The notes below the pieces were generated by a model that was not told where the DNA came from, searched no databases, and saw only the letters and a list, made by a program, of their open reading frames with translations. A program made the position numbers and the translations under genes. From Parasutterella excrementihominis YIT 11859 (GTDB lineage: Bacteria > Pseudomonadota > Gammaproteobacteria > Burkholderiales > Burkholderiaceae_F): a stretch of DNA of 64,000 nucleotides. Each line of letters starts with the position of its first letter. The stretch's first letter is position 1. The DNA is taken from the NCBI RefSeq assembly GCF_000205025.1, contig NZ_GL883687.1:62001-126000 (forward strand), written 5' to 3'. Positions 46,250 to 64,000 of this stretch are shown here, piece after piece.

Positions 46250-46274
46250 TCAAGACTCAACTTTGAGAATCCGA

Positions 46275-47468
46275 ATGAAAGCAAAAATCTGCGGTTCTTT
46301 ATGTCTACTTTCTGCTGCGGTTCTTTTATCCAATGCGCATGCAGAAACTCCCTCCGACGTTTTGCAAGCGATTCCCCATACAGAAGAGCTTCTCAATGTC
46401 GTTGTAGTCTCACGCCACGGTGTGCGTTCTCCGACTCAATCTGCAGAAAAACTGCACGGTTGGTCGGATAAGAAGTGGTCGGCTTGGCCCGTTGCTCCTG
46501 GATTGCTCACATCTCGCGGTTTTTATCTTGTCAAAGCCACGTGGAAACTCAATCGCAGTCGCGCTCCTTTTACCTACGGGGTCTGCCCGAAGCCGGAAGA
46601 CGTTCAAATCATTGCAGACGTTGATGAACGAACACGCAAAACAGCCGAGGCTTTAAATGAGGGCCTCTATCCGACCTGTGGTTATAAAGTTAAGGTCACG
46701 AGTTCCGAACATTCAGCGATTTTTTCTCCGCTGAAGGCGAAAGTCTGTCGAATTGACTATCCCAAAGAGCTCGAAGAAAAACTCACTCAAAAAGTTGTCG
46801 GGATCAACGAAAAGTTTGCGGCTCAAATGGCTGAGATCTCGAAACTAACGGGACATGAGTTTACCGGGCCGATGCGCGCAAAGGTCAGTAAATATAAAGT
46901 TGGCTTTAAGGGAGCACCGTACGATTGCTCGAGCATTACCGAGATCTTTGCTTTGGAGTGGGGCCAAAATCCTGAAAAGAAGGTCGCTTGGGACCAATTG
47001 GATTGGAACGGAATTCTGCATCTCATGCCGATACGCGTTGCTGTATTTTCTGCGCTTAATCGAGACATGGAAGTTGCTCGTTACAAAGGTTCGGCTTTAG
47101 CGAACAAGATTATTGAGAGCCTCGATCACGGTCCTAAATACACCTATCTTATCGGGCATGACACGAACTTGGCTAACCTCGGCGAAATTTTTGATTTGAA
47201 CTGGAAACTTCCCGGAAGAGATCAGAACGAAAATACGCCGGGCGGTTATCTGACCTTTGAGAAATGGTCCGTTAACGGACAGCCGGAAATCCGTGTGTTT
47301 TATTCGGCGTTATCACCCGAACAAATTCATGCAGAGAGGGTGACTCAGCCAACCGATGATTTCGAGATTCTTCCCCGCGGAACGAAGTTCGATGAATGGA
47401 AGACGACATATGGCCGCAGACTTCAGTCGAACTGTATAGCGGACGACAAGTACGAAAATCGAAAATAA
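46275..47468 (+). CDS. Periplasmic histidine-type acid phosphatase (AppA/Agp-like)
   Basis: A 397-residue exported phosphatase. The signal peptide runs MKAKICGSLCLLSAAVLLSNAHA-E. The catalytic motif VVSRHGVRSPT provides the phosphohistidine, and LIGHDTNLANL is the HD proton-donor motif. Even-numbered cysteines suggest disulfides. Family members are glucose-1-phosphatases, phytases or acid phosphatases; the substrate is not resolved. The in-frame TTG at 46263 is less likely than ATG 46275. Confidence 0.88.
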   Translation: MKAKICGSLCLLSAAVLLSNAHAETPSDVLQAIPHTEELLNVVVVSRHGVRSPTQSAEKLHGWSDKKWSAWPVAPGLLTSRGFYLVKATWKLNRSRAPFTYGVCPKPEDVQIIADVDERTRKTAEALNEGLYPTCGYKVKVTSSEHSAIFSPLKAKVCRIDYPKELEEKLTQKVVGINEKFAAQMAEISKLTGHEFTGPMRAKVSKYKVGFKGAPYDCSSITEIFALEWGQNPEKKVAWDQLDWNGILHLMPIRVAVFSALNRDMEVARYKGSALANKIIESLDHGPKYTYLIGHDTNLANLGEIFDLNWKLPGRDQNENTPGGYLTFEKWSVNGQPEIRVFYSALSPEQIHAERVTQPTDDFEILPRGTKFDEWKTTYGRRLQSNCIADDKYENRK

Positions 47469-47682: not shown

Positions 47683-49176
47683 ATGAAAAAGCTGATTGCT
47701 GTTGCAGTGCTTGCTGCATTCTCTTCTCTTCCTTATGCAGCTGAAAAAGACATCACAACAGACGTCGTCGTGGTCGGTCAGGGTGCCGCCGGTACCGCCG
47801 CCGCATTCGCCGCAGCCGAACAGGGCGCTAAAGTCATCGGCCTTGAAAAGAAAGGCATGGTCGGTGGAACGGGTAACTTCTCCGAAGGTATTTTCGCTGT
47901 AGGTTCCAAGATGCAGCGCGACTACTACATTCCTCTTACCAAAGACGAAGCTTTCAAGAAGATCATGAACTATGGTCACTGGCGCAGCAATGCCCGTCTG
48001 GTTCGTGCCTTCGTCGATAAATCTGCCGATACAGTCGAATGGATGCAGAAACACGGAGTTAAGTTCGAAAAACTGACCACCAACTATCCGGGCGGCCTCT
48101 ACACATGGCATATTTATCAGGGCCGCGGCGCTGGCTGGATTAACGCCCTTCAGAAGAAGGGCAAAGACGAATACGGCATGCAGGTTCTCCTGAACACTCC
48201 TGCTGAAAAACTGATTTTCGGCAAAGACGGCAAAGTTGCCGGCGTTGTTGCTAAAGATAAAGACGGCAATACGCTCAACATCCACGCTAAAGCCGTGATT
48301 ATCGCTACCGGCGGTTTTGCTGACAATCCCGAAATGATGAAGAAGTACACACGCTTCCCGAACACTGACGGTATTGCCCAGACCGGTAAGAACGGTGTCG
48401 GTATCCAGATGGCTTGGTCTGCCGGCGGCGGTAAAGAAGGCTTAGAAGTTCAGCAGTCCTATCGTCCGGGCCCCCGTGCAGTTTCCACAACGAACCATGT
48501 TTCTGCTACTGCCAAACAGCCTCATCTTTGGCTGACTCCGAACGGCGAACGTTTCTGCGACGAAACCATTATGGGCGACTGGCCCGCTGCCGGTAATGCT
48601 CTTGAAAGAATCGGCGGTCAGATGTGGGTTGTCTATGACAACAAGAACCTTGACTCTATGAAGCACGACGGTATTGTCCAAGGTGTCGGCGTTATGGTTC
48701 CGATCGGAGCAAAACTGACTAACTTCGAAAAAGAATGGCCGGCAGCAGAACAGGCAGGCTGGGCTGTTAAAGCTAATACGCTTGACGAACTCGCCAAAAA
48801 GACAGGTATGGATCCTGCCGTCCTGAAAGCCAGTGTTGAACAATACAACAAGGCTGCCGAACAGCGCCATGACGCTCTGTTTGCTAAGGATCCGCAGTAC
48901 ATCTTCCCGGTCAAACAGGGCCCATACTACGCCATCAAGAGTGTAGCGTCCTCTCTGGGAACTCTGGGCGGTATTAAGGTTAACGACCGTCTGCAGGTTG
49001 TCACAGATAAAGACAAGGCTATCCCGAACCTCTACGCAGCCGGTTCCGATGTCGGCGGTATGTACGGTGACTCTTATGACTTGCTAATGGCAGGCTCCAC
49101 AATTGGTTTCGCAGTTAACTCCGGCCGTATCGCTGCTGAAAGCGCCGTTAAAGATCACAACCTTGGCAAAAAATAA
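47683..49176 (+). CDS. Secreted FAD-dependent reductase of the fumarate/urocanate reductase family
   Basis: A 497-residue periplasmic flavoprotein with a Sec signal (MKKLIAVAVLAAFSSLPYA-A) and the FAD loop VVVGQGAAGTAAAFAAAEQGA (about 29-49). Its domain plan is that of the flavocytochrome c flavin subunit, and NGERFCDE fits the G-RF--E motif. The substrate-binding residues of fumarate reductase are changed: the conserved His before the MGG-type turn reads SSLGTLGGI, and the NRLGG-type segment reads YGDSYDLLMAGSTIGF. It has no heme or FMN domain, so a separate cytochrome must reduce it. The acceptor is unknown. Small hairpin GCCGC/GCGGC lies about 30 bases before the ATG. Confidence 0.85.
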   Translation: MKKLIAVAVLAAFSSLPYAAEKDITTDVVVVGQGAAGTAAAFAAAEQGAKVIGLEKKGMVGGTGNFSEGIFAVGSKMQRDYYIPLTKDEAFKKIMNYGHWRSNARLVRAFVDKSADTVEWMQKHGVKFEKLTTNYPGGLYTWHIYQGRGAGWINALQKKGKDEYGMQVLLNTPAEKLIFGKDGKVAGVVAKDKDGNTLNIHAKAVIIATGGFADNPEMMKKYTRFPNTDGIAQTGKNGVGIQMAWSAGGGKEGLEVQQSYRPGPRAVSTTNHVSATAKQPHLWLTPNGERFCDETIMGDWPAAGNALERIGGQMWVVYDNKNLDSMKHDGIVQGVGVMVPIGAKLTNFEKEWPAAEQAGWAVKANTLDELAKKTGMDPAVLKASVEQYNKAAEQRHDALFAKDPQYIFPVKQGPYYAIKSVASSLGTLGGIKVNDRLQVVTDKDKAIPNLYAAGSDVGGMYGDSYDLLMAGSTIGFAVNSGRIAAESAVKDHNLGKK

Positions 49177-58847: not shown

Positions 58848-59375
58848 TCATCGAAGTCGATACTGATATCTCACCTCCTGGTAGATATTCATTGGCTGTA
58901 CGCCGGTTGAAGGAGGACGCTTAACAAAGCCGCTGCATGCTCTGACAGCTGTCAGACCTGCCCGATCTAATTGCTTATTTCCTGAACTTTTGTAAAGATC
59001 GGCTGCTGTGAAAATTCCGTCGGCAGTGACACGGATTTTGTAAAGAGCAATACCGATCAGACCGTGAGAATTTGGCTCTAGGAACCTCCGCGCGTGAATG
59101 CAAAGCGAAACATCTTCAAGGTATTGTAGGTAAATCTCTCGTTTTTTATCGGCGACTTTTTTTTCAGTGAGGCTATTTTCCGAAACAGATTCCATCCCAA
59201 GAGATTGTCCTTGTTCTGAGACAGCTGCTTGTGCACTGTCCAGTTTTACGATGACGGTCATTGGAAAATCTTCTTCGGACGGCGCAGGTGCGGTTAAAAA
59301 CATCAAACCAAAACAATGGCACAAGATCGCTAGCGAGATGCCGATTTTGAGTGTGTCATTGGAAAGTTCGCTCAT
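58848..59375 (-). CDS. Short TonB-like energy transducer
   Basis: A 175-residue protein with one N-terminal TM segment (about 10-28). S14 and H20 sit on the TM face at a spacing like S16/H20 of E. coli TonB. The C-terminal TonB domain (about 100-175) reads ALYKIRVTADGIFTAADLYKSSG, LDRAGLTAVRACSGF. It lacks the Pro-rich spacer that lets standard TonB span the periplasm, so reach is limited. Overlaps exbD by 4 bases (ATGA). The partner receptor is not in the window. Confidence 0.82.
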   Translation of the reverse strand: MSELSNDTLKIGISLAILCHCFGLMFLTAPAPSEEDFPMTVIVKLDSAQAAVSEQGQSLGMESVSENSLTEKKVADKKREIYLQYLEDVSLCIHARRFLEPNSHGLIGIALYKIRVTADGIFTAADLYKSSGNKQLDRAGLTAVRACSGFVKRPPSTGVQPMNIYQEVRYQYRLR

Positions 59376-59785
59376 TTTTCGACCCTCGGAGAGGTAGCGA
59401 CATGAAGCTTCTCGCCTCCGTGTTGACGAACAGCATCGACCAAATAAATCATCTCTCCGGCAGGCGCCTGAGGATCTGCCATCAACACAATCTGACCCGG
59501 TCTGGCCTTGAATTGGATAATTACTGAAGCCAAACGTTCATCGAGTTCTTCTTTTTTGGTTGGGATGCCGTCGCAGAGGAATGATCCGTCTTTGTTTAGG
59601 CGAATTTCAACCACATGGCCAGCCAAGGCTTTCGATGTTTTTGCCGGAGGGAGGTCAAAATCAATAGAATGGACGGCAAAACTAGCTGCTAGGATAAAGA
59701 AGATCAGAAGAATAAAGACGACGTCAATGAGAGAAGTCAGGTCAGAAGAGTCTTCTCGCTCCCCGCGTGCTCTTATGTTGATCAT
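59372..59785 (-). CDS. exbD: ExbD-like proton-channel subunit
   Basis: 137 residues: one TM segment (about 17-40) with the essential Asp at D21 (LTSLIDVVFILLIFF), then a periplasmic ExbD domain. It works with ExbB and TonB to transmit proton-motive force. It is 36 bases after exbB and overlaps the tonB-like gene. Confidence 0.9.
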   Translation of the reverse strand: MINIRARGEREDSSDLTSLIDVVFILLIFFILAASFAVHSIDFDLPPAKTSKALAGHVVEIRLNKDGSFLCDGIPTKKEELDERLASVIIQFKARPGQIVLMADPQAPAGEMIYLVDAVRQHGGEKLHVATSPRVEK

Positions 59786-59821
59786 AATTCTCTCCCTCCG
59801 GGTTACTAGACTTCCTATGGG

Positions 59822-60427
59822 TTAGGCCGCGTTATTCTGAGACTGTTTATAAAGAACTGCCTTGTTGGCCACGCGGTTTAAATAATCCAATCGGTTACTC
59901 TCGATCGAAAGGAAAATCCTGTAGCAAAAAACGGCAGGAATGGCGATGATTAGACCGGTTGCGGTCGTAATTAATGCCTGCCATATTCCTTCGGCTAATA
60001 GTTCCATATCGATGCCGCTGCGAGATTGTGCTATGACTGCGAAAGTCTGAATCATTCCGATGATCGTTCCCAACAACCCGAGCAAGGGGGAAATCCTACC
60101 CAGCGTAGCTAAAAGAGGCAGGCGTTTATCCATCATAGCGGCTAAGGACGAGATATTTTCAGCTAATACGCCTTCGTAAAAAGGCATCTTCTCACTGGAA
60201 CCGAGCGCGGAAGCATAATTTTTGAGCCAAGGTGTTTCGGAGAAATATGTTTCAGCTGCTGCAAATTCGCCTTTTTGAATTTTTTCAAGAATATTCTTTT
60301 GTTGATCCGCATCCGGAAGCGGATTCCAGATGTAACTTAAAGACCGATCAATAATCAAAGCAAGGACAATAATGGAGATCAATAGTAAGGGTACCATTAC
60401 CCATCCGCCGGCGATAATCAGAGACAT
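59822..60427 (-). CDS. exbB: ExbB/MotA/TolQ-family proton-channel subunit
   Basis: 201 residues with three TM segments (about 8-30, 108-130, 145-170). LLATLGRISPLLGLLGTIIGMI and EGIWQALITTATGLIIAIPAVF are the MotA_ExbB signature. Start ATG 60427 has AAGGAAG 5 bases upstream; frames extending to 60493 lie inside the GTPase gene. It overlaps that gene by 10 bases, so the two are translationally coupled. Confidence 0.92.
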   Translation of the reverse strand: MSLIIAGGWVMVPLLLISIIVLALIIDRSLSYIWNPLPDADQQKNILEKIQKGEFAAAETYFSETPWLKNYASALGSSEKMPFYEGVLAENISSLAAMMDKRLPLLATLGRISPLLGLLGTIIGMIQTFAVIAQSRSGIDMELLAEGIWQALITTATGLIIAIPAVFCYRIFLSIESNRLDYLNRVANKAVLYKQSQNNAA

Positions 60428-62115
60428 CTTGACTTCCTTATAGTTGTTGAGCCCGTTTGTGGTCTGAGGCCTTTTCCAATGATTGTCAGCCATCGATCGC
60501 AGGCTTGCAAGTCATCACGAGCCTGCGAGATGCTCAGCATTCCATCTGTATATTGAACCTCGCAGCAGCCTTTTCCGACAATATCGACAATTCCCTTGGC
60601 GCGAAGCACCTTTTTTCCTGAGTTTCGAATGATTGGTTCAATTCGTTCCAATTCAAGCGGTTCAGAAAATTTGACGGCACAAGTTTCGAATAGACTGGTA
60701 TTGCCTCGCATGGAAAACCCGGCGTTGTTCAGCAGCATCGTGTCTGCTCCCGGCGTGTGTTTTCGAGAGGTAAACATACCGTACTTTTTGTCTATCCAGT
60801 GGTTGAAGAAGTGATCAAGGACGGCAAAGTTTGCATCGCCGTTGGCAGAAAGAATGATCAATGCTTTGGAATTAAGATCGTGTAGTGACTGCGTGAGCCG
60901 CTCGATGCTTTCGTCGCAGACGAGATCCGCTTTACTGACGACAATGACGTCTGCTCGTGTAAGTTGGGCCAATCTTAGTTTTTCATTGAGATATTCCGGA
61001 TGTTCGGTAAGGTTGGGTGCATCGGCCACAGAGACGACTAGACCGATCTTGCAAATATCATTTAGTTCTTCCAGAGAATGAACCACGTTATCGGGATTTG
61101 CTAAACCGGTCGTTTCCAAGATCAGTTGATCGGCCGGAGTGTTCTGAATTAACCGCAAAATCCCCGGACGAAGGCTGTCGGCGAGCGAACAGCAAATGCA
61201 GCCATCGTTGAGAGCCTCAACACAAGTTTCATCTCCGATGAGTGCCGTGTCTAAATCGATTTCACCAAATTCGTTCTGAAGGACACCGGTAAAACGTTCT
61301 CGTGTGTGAAGGAAATTGAGCCAATTTTGCAGAAAAGTGGTTTTTCCTGATCCTAAAAAACCGCAAAGAACGTGAATGAGAGGTTTGTCACTAAGGTCAA
61401 CTTCATCCGGGATATATGAAAGAGGAGGTGCAGAGAGTTTATAAACGGCGTCCATTTCTTCATCGTCTTCAAAGACCGGCAAGCCGAACTCTGCTTCTAT
61501 AAAGAAGTCATTTACACTGGGCAGATTGCCGGATTTCAGTACTCCAAGAGCCGGAGTGGTGTTTAAAGACGTTTTAAATGATTGAATCAGGGCGGAAAAA
61601 AGCGGCATAAGGGCACGTGCCGGCCGCATCTCTCGTCCGATAAAGCGGGCGTCTCTTTTGTGAGTATGGAACGAAAGATTAAGACCTTTTTTATCTAACC
61701 GAAACACGAGTCCCATCGAACCGATCTTAAAATCCTGCAGTTCCTGGAAATGTTCGGATAGAGTCCTGATCTTTTGAATGTGATTATCTTTTTTGTATAA
61801 CCCCTGCATGCTCTCGGGCATTTGGGTCTTTAATTCGTCTCCCACGGGAAAAGCGTAGAGATCAAACGAGGAGGCAATCGCCTGATCATCATGCTCTTCT
61901 CCCATGAAGACGATTCCATATACCAAGTCGCTGTTAGCCAGTCTTGTGGACCAAGAGAAATTTCCCTTATTTGAAGGGAGAAAACCCCTCCACCCTAATC
62001 CTCGTGCAACCTTACGGTCTAAGTGGAGCTGCATGAGGAGGTTGTGAAGAAGAGTGACGCCTTCGTTTTCGGTTTCAGGAGAAAGGCTTCGGGGAATTAA
62101 ACAATCGAGCAACAT
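60418..62115 (-). CDS. COG0523 (CobW-like) GTPase with a novel N-terminal half
   Basis: A 565-residue protein. Residues 1-240 match nothing I recognise: a mixed alpha/beta-looking region with LLHNLLMQLHLDRKVARGLGW near 21-41 and HTHKRDARFIGREMRPA near 150-166. Residues 245-565 are a CobW GTPase: P-loop GFLGSGKTTFL at 252-262, NEFGEIDLD, the metal-binding CxCC motif GCICC at 305-309, ETTG at 334-337 and guanine-specific SKAD at 394-397, then a CobW_C domain. COG0523 proteins are metallochaperones or insertases for Zn, Co, Fe or Ni. Coupling to exbB-exbD-tonB suggests a metal-import system. The metal is unknown. Confidence 0.85.
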   Translation of the reverse strand: MLLDCLIPRSLSPETENEGVTLLHNLLMQLHLDRKVARGLGWRGFLPSNKGNFSWSTRLANSDLVYGIVFMGEEHDDQAIASSFDLYAFPVGDELKTQMPESMQGLYKKDNHIQKIRTLSEHFQELQDFKIGSMGLVFRLDKKGLNLSFHTHKRDARFIGREMRPARALMPLFSALIQSFKTSLNTTPALGVLKSGNLPSVNDFFIEAEFGLPVFEDDEEMDAVYKLSAPPLSYIPDEVDLSDKPLIHVLCGFLGSGKTTFLQNWLNFLHTRERFTGVLQNEFGEIDLDTALIGDETCVEALNDGCICCSLADSLRPGILRLIQNTPADQLILETTGLANPDNVVHSLEELNDICKIGLVVSVADAPNLTEHPEYLNEKLRLAQLTRADVIVVSKADLVCDESIERLTQSLHDLNSKALIILSANGDANFAVLDHFFNHWIDKKYGMFTSRKHTPGADTMLLNNAGFSMRGNTSLFETCAVKFSEPLELERIEPIIRNSGKKVLRAKGIVDIVGKGCCEVQYTDGMLSISQARDDLQACDRWLTIIGKGLRPQTGSTTIRKSRCL

Positions 62116-62130
62116 GGTGGAAAATCTTTC

Positions 62131-62151
62131 CGGCCCCGCTTCCCGGGGCCG
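62131..62151 (-). terminator. Intercistronic hairpin before the CobW-like gene
   Basis: CGGCCCCG (62131-62138) and CGGGGCCG (62144-62151) pair around 5 bases in the 48-base gap between the MBL and GTPase genes. On the minus strand GAAAGATTTTCC follows, a weak tract, so it is probably a partial terminator or RNA-processing site. Confidence 0.55.
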
Positions 62152-62163
62152 ATAGCGGTTAAA

Positions 62164-63312
62164 TTAACTTGGGAACAGTAACGTATCACCGTTGCCTAAG
62201 TAGTTGGTTGTCTTCGAACGGAACCGAGCTGTACCCTGTACCACCGGATAACCTGCATCCACGAATTTTTGTGCTGTGATTAAGCCTGTGCAGTGGTTGC
62301 AGCCCACCTTCTGAAGATCCCATTTCTTAAGGCCTATGACCAAGTCGTCATACTTCGGATCCCAGTCGTCAAACGGGGAGATATGAAGGCCGCCGTAAAG
62401 ACCGTAGAACTTATCGTTTTCGTAAGCGATTTCTTTGTAAGCCGTGTCCGCAAACAGGATGATGCCTTGATGGCAGCAGCCCGTAATGGAAACCAAACCT
62501 ACGTCTTTAACGTTGCAGTACAGAGACATCTCTCCGTAGACCTTGAAAATAATCGGGCATTCGAACTGGTACAGTGCCACACCTTCCTGGATTTTATGGA
62601 GTCCTTTCGTGACGTCAATTACCTTGCCGACATGGCCGGAGCGCACCATATAGTCCTTACCTGCAGGGTAGAAAGTGGATGGACGGTAGACAGTGACGTT
62701 GGGGCCGTATTTGGCGACGACAGGGAAGCCGAAATAGTGGTCCATGTGCTCATGCGTGGAGATAAAGGCAGCTATCTCACCGTTGGCGAGCATTTTGTCG
62801 ATGCCTTCGCGCTTGAAGCATTGATCCATCCACATGTAGTTCCAGCCGCAGTCAAACAAGTACTTCGTTTTCTTGCCGTCCAGAGCTTCGATTTCAACGA
62901 GGCAGGAGTAGCCGCCTGCGTTGTCGGCATGCTCACTCAGTTCACGAGTGATTTCCCAAGCTTTTTCCAGATTTTTAGGAAGGTACGGTCCGATATTTTT
63001 CATACCGTCTTCATAAGTTCCTTTGCCGGGGCCTTTACCGTTGCCGAAGGGCGCCCAGTTATAGGTGTACTGGTCAACCAACAAACCGCCGGAAGCCGTG
63101 ACGTCCTGCATAAAGATGCTGTTGTCAAACCAGCTTGTTTCGGAAATGTTGGTGATCTTGACGGATTTGCACAAGCCGATGTCAGCTGTTCCGCGTTTAA
63201 TGTCAGGAAGAAAGGCCGTGCGGGCGGGTGAGTAAGAATAGGCACCCATTGCACCGAGAGTACCAACACCGGCACCAAGTGCTAAACCTTGTACGAAATT
63301 ACGTCGTTTCAT
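62164..63312 (-). CDS. Tat-type exported metallo-beta-lactamase-fold protein
   Basis: A 382-residue protein whose N-terminus MKRRNFVQGLALGAGVGTLG has RRNF, an apparent twin-arginine signal. The MBL metal motif THEHMDH is at 186-192, with further metal-site residues expected in GCCHQG and in the late GGLHIS. The fold variant resembles the dihydropterin-methyl-ribofuranosylaminobenzene-phosphate-synthase-like MBL branch. Extra cysteines (GCC, GCNHCTG) are notable. The substrate is unknown. It lies between a membrane protein (15 bases upstream) and the CobW-like gene in one leftward unit. Confidence 0.78.
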   Translation of the reverse strand: MKRRNFVQGLALGAGVGTLGAMGAYSYSPARTAFLPDIKRGTADIGLCKSVKITNISETSWFDNSIFMQDVTASGGLLVDQYTYNWAPFGNGKGPGKGTYEDGMKNIGPYLPKNLEKAWEITRELSEHADNAGGYSCLVEIEALDGKKTKYLFDCGWNYMWMDQCFKREGIDKMLANGEIAAFISTHEHMDHYFGFPVVAKYGPNVTVYRPSTFYPAGKDYMVRSGHVGKVIDVTKGLHKIQEGVALYQFECPIIFKVYGEMSLYCNVKDVGLVSITGCCHQGIILFADTAYKEIAYENDKFYGLYGGLHISPFDDWDPKYDDLVIGLKKWDLQKVGCNHCTGLITAQKFVDAGYPVVQGTARFRSKTTNYLGNGDTLLFPS

Positions 63313-63327
63313 AATTATTCCTTTCTT

Positions 63328-64000
63328 TTAATCGACTAATGTGAACAGTTTGCTGCAGATCGGGAGAACCCAGACGACGGCGAAGTAGAAGGCGATACCG
63401 ACTGCGATTCCGCATACCAAGCCCGGTATCATGTCTGTGCGCCAAACAGCTCGTTCTTCAACTTCTTTTTCTGCAGCTTCGACTTCTTCGGCTGTACGCA
63501 TCGTCAGTTTCCAGCCTGGCCATCCGTCCATGAACCACCAGTTAATCAGCCAAATGTCGATTAACCAAATCATCGGGATCATCGGGAACTGCTGCGGATG
63601 AGAGAATCCCTTCTGAGTTCCGAGGAAGAAATGACCGTACTTGTAATACAAGCAGTAGATCGCAACGCCGCCCAGAAGAACGATGGTGGATCTGATTAAG
63701 ACGTTAACCGGAGTGCTGAACTTACGGGGCCAATTGCCGCAGTAGAACTGCAGGAAGAGCGCCGGAACGAGGAAGAAGATGGCGGTTTCGCCGACATGCA
63801 GCCAGCGCCAGTCAGGAGCAGCGTCGCGTCTGTGACCGCGAATTGCTTCGCCCCATGTTAATTCCTGCATGTACCAGAAGAAGAAGCACAGAGCCCAGGA
63901 AATAACAATAATGCCGAAGAAAACAGCCAGTCTGCGGAGCCACGGAGTCTTAATCATCGTGAACGGGTAGCGTTCCCAGATGCCTTCCATGAACCACACC
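63328..64000 (-). CDS. Integral membrane protein, 5' end outside window
   Basis: The frame is open to the window edge, with 223 codons visible. Hydrophobic segments lie at about 24-44, 70-88, 103-121, 142-160 and 193-216 of the visible part; Trp-rich stretches (WYMQELTW, WLINWWFMDGWPGW) are striking. A charged Glu-rich loop precedes the last TM segment. I do not recognise the family. It ends 15 bases before the exported MBL protein and is probably cotranscribed with it. Confidence 0.7.
   Translation of the reverse strand, partial: VWFMEGIWERYPFTMIKTPWLRRLAVFFGIIVISWALCFFFWYMQELTWGEAIRGHRRDAAPDWRWLHVGETAIFFLVPALFLQFYCGNWPRKFSTPVNVLIRSTIVLLGGVAIYCLYYKYGHFFLGTQKGFSHPQQFPMIPMIWLIDIWLINWWFMDGWPGWKLTMRTAEEVEAAEKEVEERAVWRTDMIPGLVCGIAVGIAFYFAVVWVLPICSKLFTLVD

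Follow-up and report, generated by a model that had tools for sequence, protein, structure and literature searches.

A conserved six-gene unit of Parasutterella excrementihominis joining a membrane protein without a family match, an MBL-fold protein, a CobW-type GTPase fusion and an ExbB-ExbD-TonB cassette

Background

A six-gene unit lies at the end of a 64,000-nucleotide stretch of the genome of Parasutterella excrementihominis YIT 11859 (contig NZ_GL883687.1, positions 62,001 to 126,000; hereafter the window). It encodes a polytopic membrane protein (MEM), a metallo-beta-lactamase (MBL)-fold protein with a signal for twin-arginine translocation (Tat), a fusion of an N-terminal domain to a CobW-type GTPase, and an ExbB-ExbD-TonB cassette. 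Each part has a described counterpart from which it differs. The fusion shares the cobW and CobW_C domains, the P-loop and the GCxCC motif with the COG0523/CobW G3E GTPases (ZigA, YjiA, CobW, P47K). Unlike these, it has about 243 extra N-terminal residues, which form a separate protein in distant loci, and it scores far below every NCBIfam equivalog cut-off. It sits beside one would-be metalloprotein client, just as P47K (Nha3), the nitrile hydratase activator, is encoded beside nitrile hydratase (PMC2770081, in excerpt).

With the ExbB-ExbD-TonB and TolQ-TolR-TolA systems, the unit has in common the three-gene order, the family domains, the histidine in the transmembrane (TM) helix of TonB and the aspartate in that of ExbD. 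However, its ExbB and ExbD score under the exbB, tolQ, tolR and ExbD cut-offs of NCBIfam, nearer to TolQ/TolR, and its TonB is short and without a proline-rich linker. No receptor is encoded beside it, and its ExbD copies mostly form a tree group of their own. The MBL protein resembles PDB entry 7dck and the entries 2p4z and 3h3e, which we take to be COG1237-like, in its MBL fold (by sequence) and in its HxHxDH, GCxH and HCTG-type motifs; it is set apart by the twin-arginine N-terminus, an extra N-terminal segment and a near-constant membrane partner gene. MEM is polytopic and helical, like the NrfD-like quinone-binding subunits, to which it bears a weak structural resemblance (Foldseek E 0.08-0.42), but it has no sequence match to them and carries invariant histidines on its probable periplasmic side.

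Searches of an open-access literature library gave no description of a unit with this content, in agreement with a first-pass annotation of the DNA, which could name no such system. We propose that the unit serves to produce and operate a metalloprotein pair (MEM-MBL) that is bound to the membrane and faces the periplasm, together with a maturase of its own and, in some lineages, a dedicated motor. This proposal is tentative; we give it slightly less than an even chance.

Organisation of the unit

The six open reading frames (ORFs) were confirmed on the minus strand at window positions 58848-64000 (Table 1), with intergenic gaps of 15, 48, -10, 36 and -4 bases as first annotated, given that ExbB starts at ATG 60427. 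This start is preceded by AAGGAAG and is supported by the relatives L056 and L057, which share the -10 overlap between the GTPase and ExbB genes. The spacing suggests that the six genes share one transcript. Pattern scans of the locus showed no excess of promoter-like sites (13, against 10.8 in shuffles, standard deviation 4.0) or of terminator-like sites (13 against 10.1, standard deviation 3.1). No riboswitch was found at the unit in an Rfam scan of this locus and eight related loci; a single SAM-I/IV match in L059 lay outside the unit. The MEM gene is cut by the window end at 64000, the complete gene (L004:7328-8728, minus strand) encoding 466 amino acids (aa). Beyond this point, where the first-pass annotation had advised looking for a receptor or regulator, about 690 bp without an ORF of at least 100 aa are followed by two genes that look DedA-like by eye.

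Table 1. Coordinates of the six genes and of the domains of the fusion protein in the window
Feature	Position	Strand	Basis
MEM, polytopic membrane protein, 3' part	63328..64000	-	ORF; whole gene L004:7328-8728, 466 aa
MBL-fold protein, N-terminal twin-arginine signal	62164..63312	-	Pfam Lactamase_B, alignment
Fusion: N-terminal domain assigned to the MEM-MBL system + COG0523/CobW-type G3E GTPase	60418..62115	-	Pfam, alignment
Fusion N-terminal domain, residues 1-243	61387..62115	-	Model, stand-alone homologues in distant MEM-MBL loci
cobW nucleotide-binding domain, residues 247-420, GFLGSGKT + GCICC	60856..61377	-	Pfam E 3.9e-37
CobW_C domain, residues 476-553	60457..60690	-	Pfam E 4.8e-9
ExbB/TolQ-type proton channel subunit, start ATG 60427	59822..60427	-	Pfam MotA_ExbB E 8.2e-27
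ExbD/TolR-type subunit	59372..59785	-	Pfam ExbD; D21 in 28 of 28 unit copies
Short TonB/TolA-type protein, 175 aa, without proline-rich linker	58848..59375	-	Pfam TonB_2 E 1.6e-5; NCBIfam tonB_Cterm E 4e-7, over cut-off

Conservation and spread

Among 67 genomes of the same family, six contained a full-length GTPase fusion, and the same six contained a full-length MBL gene adjacent to it, which bears out the earlier suggestion that these two genes are linked. The six genomes (3/3 in the own genus, g1, and 3/12 in genus g16) each carry all six genes in order. Two further family genomes gave MBL matches that were both weak and partial (E 7.8e-5 and 3.5e-4), and other CobW matches in the family cover mainly the GTPase part. 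Identity within the family was 82-96% for MEM, 79-93% for MBL and 37-71% for the GTPase protein.

Beyond the family, MEM was used for a pattern search, which brought up 102 relatives; the best 80 loci were compared. They span the Desulfovibrionaceae (including Bilophila and Mailhella), other Desulfobacterota, Rhodospirillales, Hyphomicrobiales, SAR324, Spirochaetia, Deferribacteraceae and Bacteroidales. MBL adjoins MEM in 78 of the 80 loci, the two exceptions (L121 and L129) being cut by a contig end. The GTPase protein was detected in 72 loci with a hidden Markov model and in 71 with BLAST; in L072, L074, L076 and L088 the contig ends within it and only its N-terminal part is present, and in L130 its gene is found upstream, on the opposite strand. 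Other genera and phyla also show the order MEM-MBL-GTPase-ExbB-ExbD-TonB. The neighbourhood is conserved, and the view that the six genes form one unit is upheld. Median gaps (own locus included, starts set by homology) were 36 bases for MEM-MBL (79 pairs), 102 for MBL-GTPase (72 pairs, some with intervening genes) and -4 at each of the three following junctions (28 pairs).

MEM and MBL are the most conserved part of the unit and form an almost inseparable gene pair. The ExbB-ExbD-TonB cassette is an accessory to this pair, present at 27 of the 80 loci; the other 53 show none in the stretch examined, although some of these loci are cut. Its position varied in two cases, upstream of MEM in L077 and about 2 kb behind the GTPase gene in L083. 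The first-pass annotation had considered that MEM and MBL might be unrelated cargo beside a metal-uptake operon. The limited occurrence of the cassette would agree with this, but we give the idea almost no credence: co-occurrence and gene order are conserved, the N-terminal domain of the fusion stays linked to MEM-MBL even where the GTPase is missing, and 27 of 28 ExbD copies of the unit fall in one tree group (see below).

Of 398 genomes sampled evenly from the own phylum, two had a strong MEM match (the own genome included) and one a weak match (E 6.7e-4). Of 395 genomes of the Desulfovibrio phylum, 28 had a MEM match, of which 11 were nearly full-length (below E 1e-200), one was a contig-end fragment and 16 were distant. 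Three MEM-like matches (G762:C57, G624:C63 and G501:C7) have one to three in-frame stops and are possibly decaying copies or overruns beyond the gene end. The MEM tree places Parasutterella within the Desulfovibrionaceae, with SH-aLRT support of 100 for a gut clade of nine rows and 98 for the enclosing clade of eleven; a gut clade in the ExbD tree (98) comprises Parasutterella, Sutterella, Bilophila, Mailhella and Desulfovibrio. This pattern agrees with the six genes having moved between gut lineages as one block. A plasmid search with MEM gave no match.

The GTPase fusion

Both the cobW and the CobW_C domain of the fusion score over their Pfam cut-offs and follow the N-terminal residues, which match no family. 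Its P-loop and GCxCC motifs are also found in the relatives. The CobW part is ordinary for the COG0523/CobW family, and by analogy with that family it would bind metal and hand it over in a GTP-driven step.

The model of the N-terminal domain was confident (pLDDT 93.5). Foldseek gave no match at E 0.001 or better; in a structure comparison many top rows were SRPBCC/START-like helix-grip proteins by title, but the resemblance is weak, with Z never above 5.5 and an rmsd of 4.0 over 128 residues. The alignment of this domain comprised the window sequence and 61 of 64 rows (L058, L087 and L126 omitted). Six loci (L162-L167) contain distant MBL-MEM pairs, and in five of them a stand-alone homologue of the N-terminal domain (295-336 aa, E 3.5e-23 to 4.6e-12) adjoins the pair; the sixth gave a match of merely E 0.011. 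Profile-profile comparison of the stand-alone homologues with the fusion domain (hhalign) reached 99.8% (E 1.6e-27), and two of the five, when scanned, contained no Pfam domain. Because distant MEM-MBL loci carry it as a separate gene, we assign the N-terminal domain to the MEM-MBL system; the fusion would tie a metallochaperone-type GTPase to that system. That the GTPase matures the MBL protein is a good inference from this arrangement.

The MBL protein

The HxHxDH motif (H187, H189, D191, H192) and the residues H281, H310 and H340 remain unchanged in 97% or more of the 78 MBL sequences, the window's included, and 120 columns of this alignment are conserved to the same degree. The nearest solved relatives by sequence are 7dck (E 2.7e-9), 2p4z (E 4e-7) and 3h3e (E 0.051). 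In the Tat-signal region G9, G13, G17, M22 and S26 are fixed in all 78 sequences. In view of these fixed positions we take the twin-arginine start to be an uncleaved anchor that probably contacts a partner.

The membrane protein

Neither the cut nor the whole MEM protein matched a Pfam family, there was no NCBIfam match either, and a comparison of its profile with PDB sequences gave nothing up to E 10. For the P. muris orthologue, AlphaFold2 gave a model with 11 TM helices (pLDDT 76.5, pTM 0.82), and a Foldseek search with it returned no match with E <= 0.001. The weak matches (E 0.08 or worse) included subunits of alternative complex III and transporters, with alternative complex III chains accounting for four of the first eight (E 0.08-0.42); chains C and F of that complex are presumably NrfD-like, quinone-binding subunits. 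A second fold comparison was led by a de novo coiled-coil barrel of five helices (Z 9.1, with an rmsd of 6.0 over 233 residues), which is in the range of common arrangements, and alternative complex III chains were absent from its 50 top rows. A possible motif likeness to methane/ammonia monooxygenase subunits was dropped, as it found no support in the PDB-sequence or Foldseek comparisons.

In an alignment of 52 of the 80 rows, covering several phyla (the Sutterella loci L059, L061 and L071 omitted), the mean column identity of MEM was 75%. Six histidines are invariant (200, 202, 233, 311, 366 and 377). With loops assigned alternately, all six lie on the side poorer in lysine and arginine (7.9 against 15.7 per protein), which also has more invariant loop residues (41 against 27 on the other side). 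Since its lysine and arginine content is low, the side with the histidines is likely the periplasmic one. A construction of MEM from five internal repeats is suggestive only: three of the ten repeat pairs (R1-R5, R4-R5 and R1-R2) reached 41-74% in hhalign and the other seven less than 4%, against at most 7.6% for 60 column-shuffled control pairs.

Six invariant histidines on one side would also suit a respiratory or redox complex, in which MEM binds haem, a metal or a quinone through them and MBL is catalytic, electrons passing to or from the quinone pool or cytochrome c. The alternative complex III chains among the weak matches would suit a quinone enzyme, a small CxxCH protein is encoded directly upstream of MBL in two of the six distant loci (L165 and L167), and single MEM-like genes lie beside acyl-CoA dehydrogenase genes in two loci. 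The groups that carry MEM loci are largely known as anaerobes or phototrophs. We nevertheless regard such a complex as unlikely. The Foldseek matches do not go beyond E 0.08, the MBL motifs are of the hydrolase type (HxHxDH), and H311 alone is kept across all three MEM groups, the third of which is described below. Moreover, no cytochrome family occurred in two or more of the neighbouring ORFs scanned with Pfam, which were called by length and numbered 140 (70 of 144 downstream candidates and 70 of 171 upstream or intervening ones).

The ExbB-ExbD-TonB cassette

The linker of TonB is normally long, spans the periplasm and is usually rich in proline. By this measure the TonB of the unit falls short, with 168-179 aa and no (P.)4 repeat in all 28 copies. 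The raw ORF fits this length in 23; in the other five it is longer (236-341 aa) and the start was set by homology. Other TonB-like genes of the same lineages, named by eye, encode 239-302 aa by ORF length, with unverified starts. S16 (26 of 28 copies) and H20 (28 of 28) of TonB and the invariant D21 of ExbD occupy what we take to be the proton-coupling positions. The ExbD tree, a quick tree without bootstrap and with a long-branch warning, also included 20 other ExbD/TolR copies taken from the carrier genomes. In it, a group of 27 unit copies had SH-aLRT support of 88, and L095 fell outside this group on a long branch; the row L158, counted among the others, is the own unit of G477.

The mechanism suggested in the first-pass annotation was that the cassette drives a receptor importing a metal or metal complex, which the GTPase delivers in the cytosol, possibly to MBL. 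The intact proton-coupling residues are in its favour, and the GTPase family has zinc-linked and cobalamin-linked members (PMC2770081, in excerpt). The genome itself holds two plug-domain receptors, both away from the contig of the window, and 24 of the 28 genomes with the cassette have at least one. However, a plug-domain search of 34 carrier genomes (35 locus handles, since L111 and L079 are in one genome) found five without, four of which (G002, G469, G472 and G477) hold the cassette; the fifth, G475, whose unit is cut short, shows no cassette. Most carrier genomes are drafts, and among these four the completeness is known for G002 alone (99%). The barrel family is also absent in three of the four, the sole match in G002 being a 429-aa protein that is FadL-like by eye. 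G002, G469 and G472 have two ExbD-family genes each, one grouping with TolR and the other belonging to the unit. In G000 and G001 there is a third, 6-7 kb from a receptor gene; in G000 another ExbB-ExbD-TonB set is found about 6 kb from a receptor gene.

No plug domain was found on the contig of the window, and no receptor or metal-transporter family occurred in at least two of the 70 downstream or 70 upstream ORFs scanned, although single cases may exist. Together with the short TonB, the 53 loci at which no cassette was seen and the lack of a riboswitch at the unit, these results make receptor-driven metal uptake quite improbable. The receptor step of the suggested mechanism is weakened, whereas the step from the GTPase to MBL has gained strength.

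Neighbouring genes and distant MEM groups

Genes near MEM were compared in 86 loci, a set that includes six family loci mostly repeating named ones. A cluster of GntR-type regulators lies upstream in 53 loci, and the member tested with Pfam contained GntR and FCD domains. A PAS-domain protein (e.g. L066:6500-7846) is encoded in 47 loci, mostly upstream of the GntR gene; in two of the loci it lies downstream instead of upstream of MEM. In the one member scanned no kinase, GGDEF or DNA-binding Pfam domain was present, and both cluster names, GntR and PAS, derive from a single Pfam-tested member. Small proteins with a twin-arginine-like start formed four clusters of 19, 7, 6 and 6 loci. Those at L073:8607-8903 and L110:8634-8933 and their relatives start with RRxFF, are encoded directly upstream of MEM and have by eye no hydrophobic stretch; a similar protein is encoded beside MEM in L166. 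None of these three kinds of gene was seen in the stretches examined at the Parasutterella loci. Chemoreceptors with a dCache domain lie beside a few loci. No Pfam family was present in more than 7 of the 70 ORFs in either scanned set, so the unit looks self-contained. A role in sulfur metabolism was set aside, DsrC-like genes (by Pfam) lying between MBL and the GTPase gene in L091 (13959-14645) and L096 (5912-6571) only; in L096 another gene that resembles them by eye follows downstream.

Nine loci (L168, L169, L171, L172 and L175-L179) contain MEM-like proteins of a third group, which is more distant still. According to Pfam, the neighbours in six of the nine include acyl-CoA ligase, thiolase, acyl-CoA dehydrogenase or methylmalonyl-CoA mutase genes; L171 is a seventh such case, by eye. 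Four proteins of this group were scanned without a Pfam match over the cut-off, and one distant MEM-like protein matched PDB sequences at E 0.13 or worse only.

These neighbours and regulators bear on the possibility that MEM is an organic-acid permease and MBL a periplasmic hydrolase that releases this acid from an ester, a lactone or an amide; the regulators would sense the acid. GntR-FCD regulators, dCache chemoreceptors and acyl-CoA ligase, thiolase or mutase genes beside distant MEM-like genes would all agree with this. On the other hand, MEM is in our judgement very conserved for a permease, and it has no convincing transporter match; we consider this function decidedly unlikely.

Three side observations concern other genes. 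In G002, a trio of genes that by eye are molybdopterin-oxidoreductase-like, ferredoxin-like and NrfD-like (L012:250-4302) is convergent to the unit. Elsewhere in the window, positions 46263-47468 encode an exported-looking protein with an RHGVR motif, presumably like periplasmic histidine acid phosphatases, and positions 47683-49176 an exported-looking FAD-dependent protein, which we assume to resemble soluble fumarate/urocanate reductase flavoproteins.

Proposed function

In the proposed metalloprotein pair with its own maturase, the fusion protein would act in the cytosol to fold the MBL protein and supply it with metal, the N-terminal domain serving as client adaptor and the CobW part as GTP-dependent metal inserter. 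MBL would be exported by the Tat system and held against MEM by its uncleaved signal anchor, and the six histidines of MEM may provide a second metal or redox site. In the Parasutterella lineage the short-TonB motor would act on MEM-MBL or on another envelope partner, and a TonB-dependent receptor would not be required. The reaction would probably be a hydrolysis or a redox conversion, and the compound acted on would be small and perhaps of the carboxylate type.

Several points weigh against this proposal. Eight of the 80 loci lack the GTPase; five are cut by a contig end, but L132, L133 and L135 are uncut and have none nearby. Distant MBL copies retain their metal motifs beside an N-domain protein without a CobW domain, so the GTPase would not be strictly needed for the MBL fold; it may set the choice of metal, or loading in shortage, rather than MBL metal binding as such. 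MEM has no recognised fold, its weak structural matches include alternative complex III subunits and transporters, and H233, H366 and H377 are not kept in all distant relatives. The motor was seen at no more than 27 of the 80 loci, and most genomes with the cassette do have a plug-domain receptor. Where it seems absent, one missing draft contig could have removed both the receptor and the third ExbD gene, since the two are linked in relatives. The carboxylate idea derives from the neighbours of distant relatives and from a regulator that is not found at the Parasutterella loci. Activity, metal content, localisation and interaction are all inferred, from sequence and predicted structures.

A bolder possibility, on the doubtful side but worth stating, is an undescribed class of envelope machine. 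It would comprise a membrane metalloprotein with no fold match and an anchored periplasmic MBL protein matured by an adaptor-GTPase; in some lineages, a short-TonB ExbB-ExbD motor would pull on an inner-membrane or periplasmic partner and not on an outer-membrane receptor. MBL, CobW and ExbBD-TonB each belong to a kind of part already described; the novelty would lie in the assembly around MEM, whose function is a prediction.

Conclusions

The unit is a strongly conserved gene set of sulfate reducers, purple bacteria, gut Desulfovibrionaceae and Sutterellaceae, yet none of the libraries searched has a family name for its central protein. Because the domain fused to the GTPase also exists alone beside the same two proteins, the unit would offer a defined client for an orphan COG0523 GTPase; which metalloprotein each of these GTPases serves has been a long-standing gap. 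In the cassette, nature may provide an example of a TonB-type motor whose task is not to open TonB-dependent receptors.

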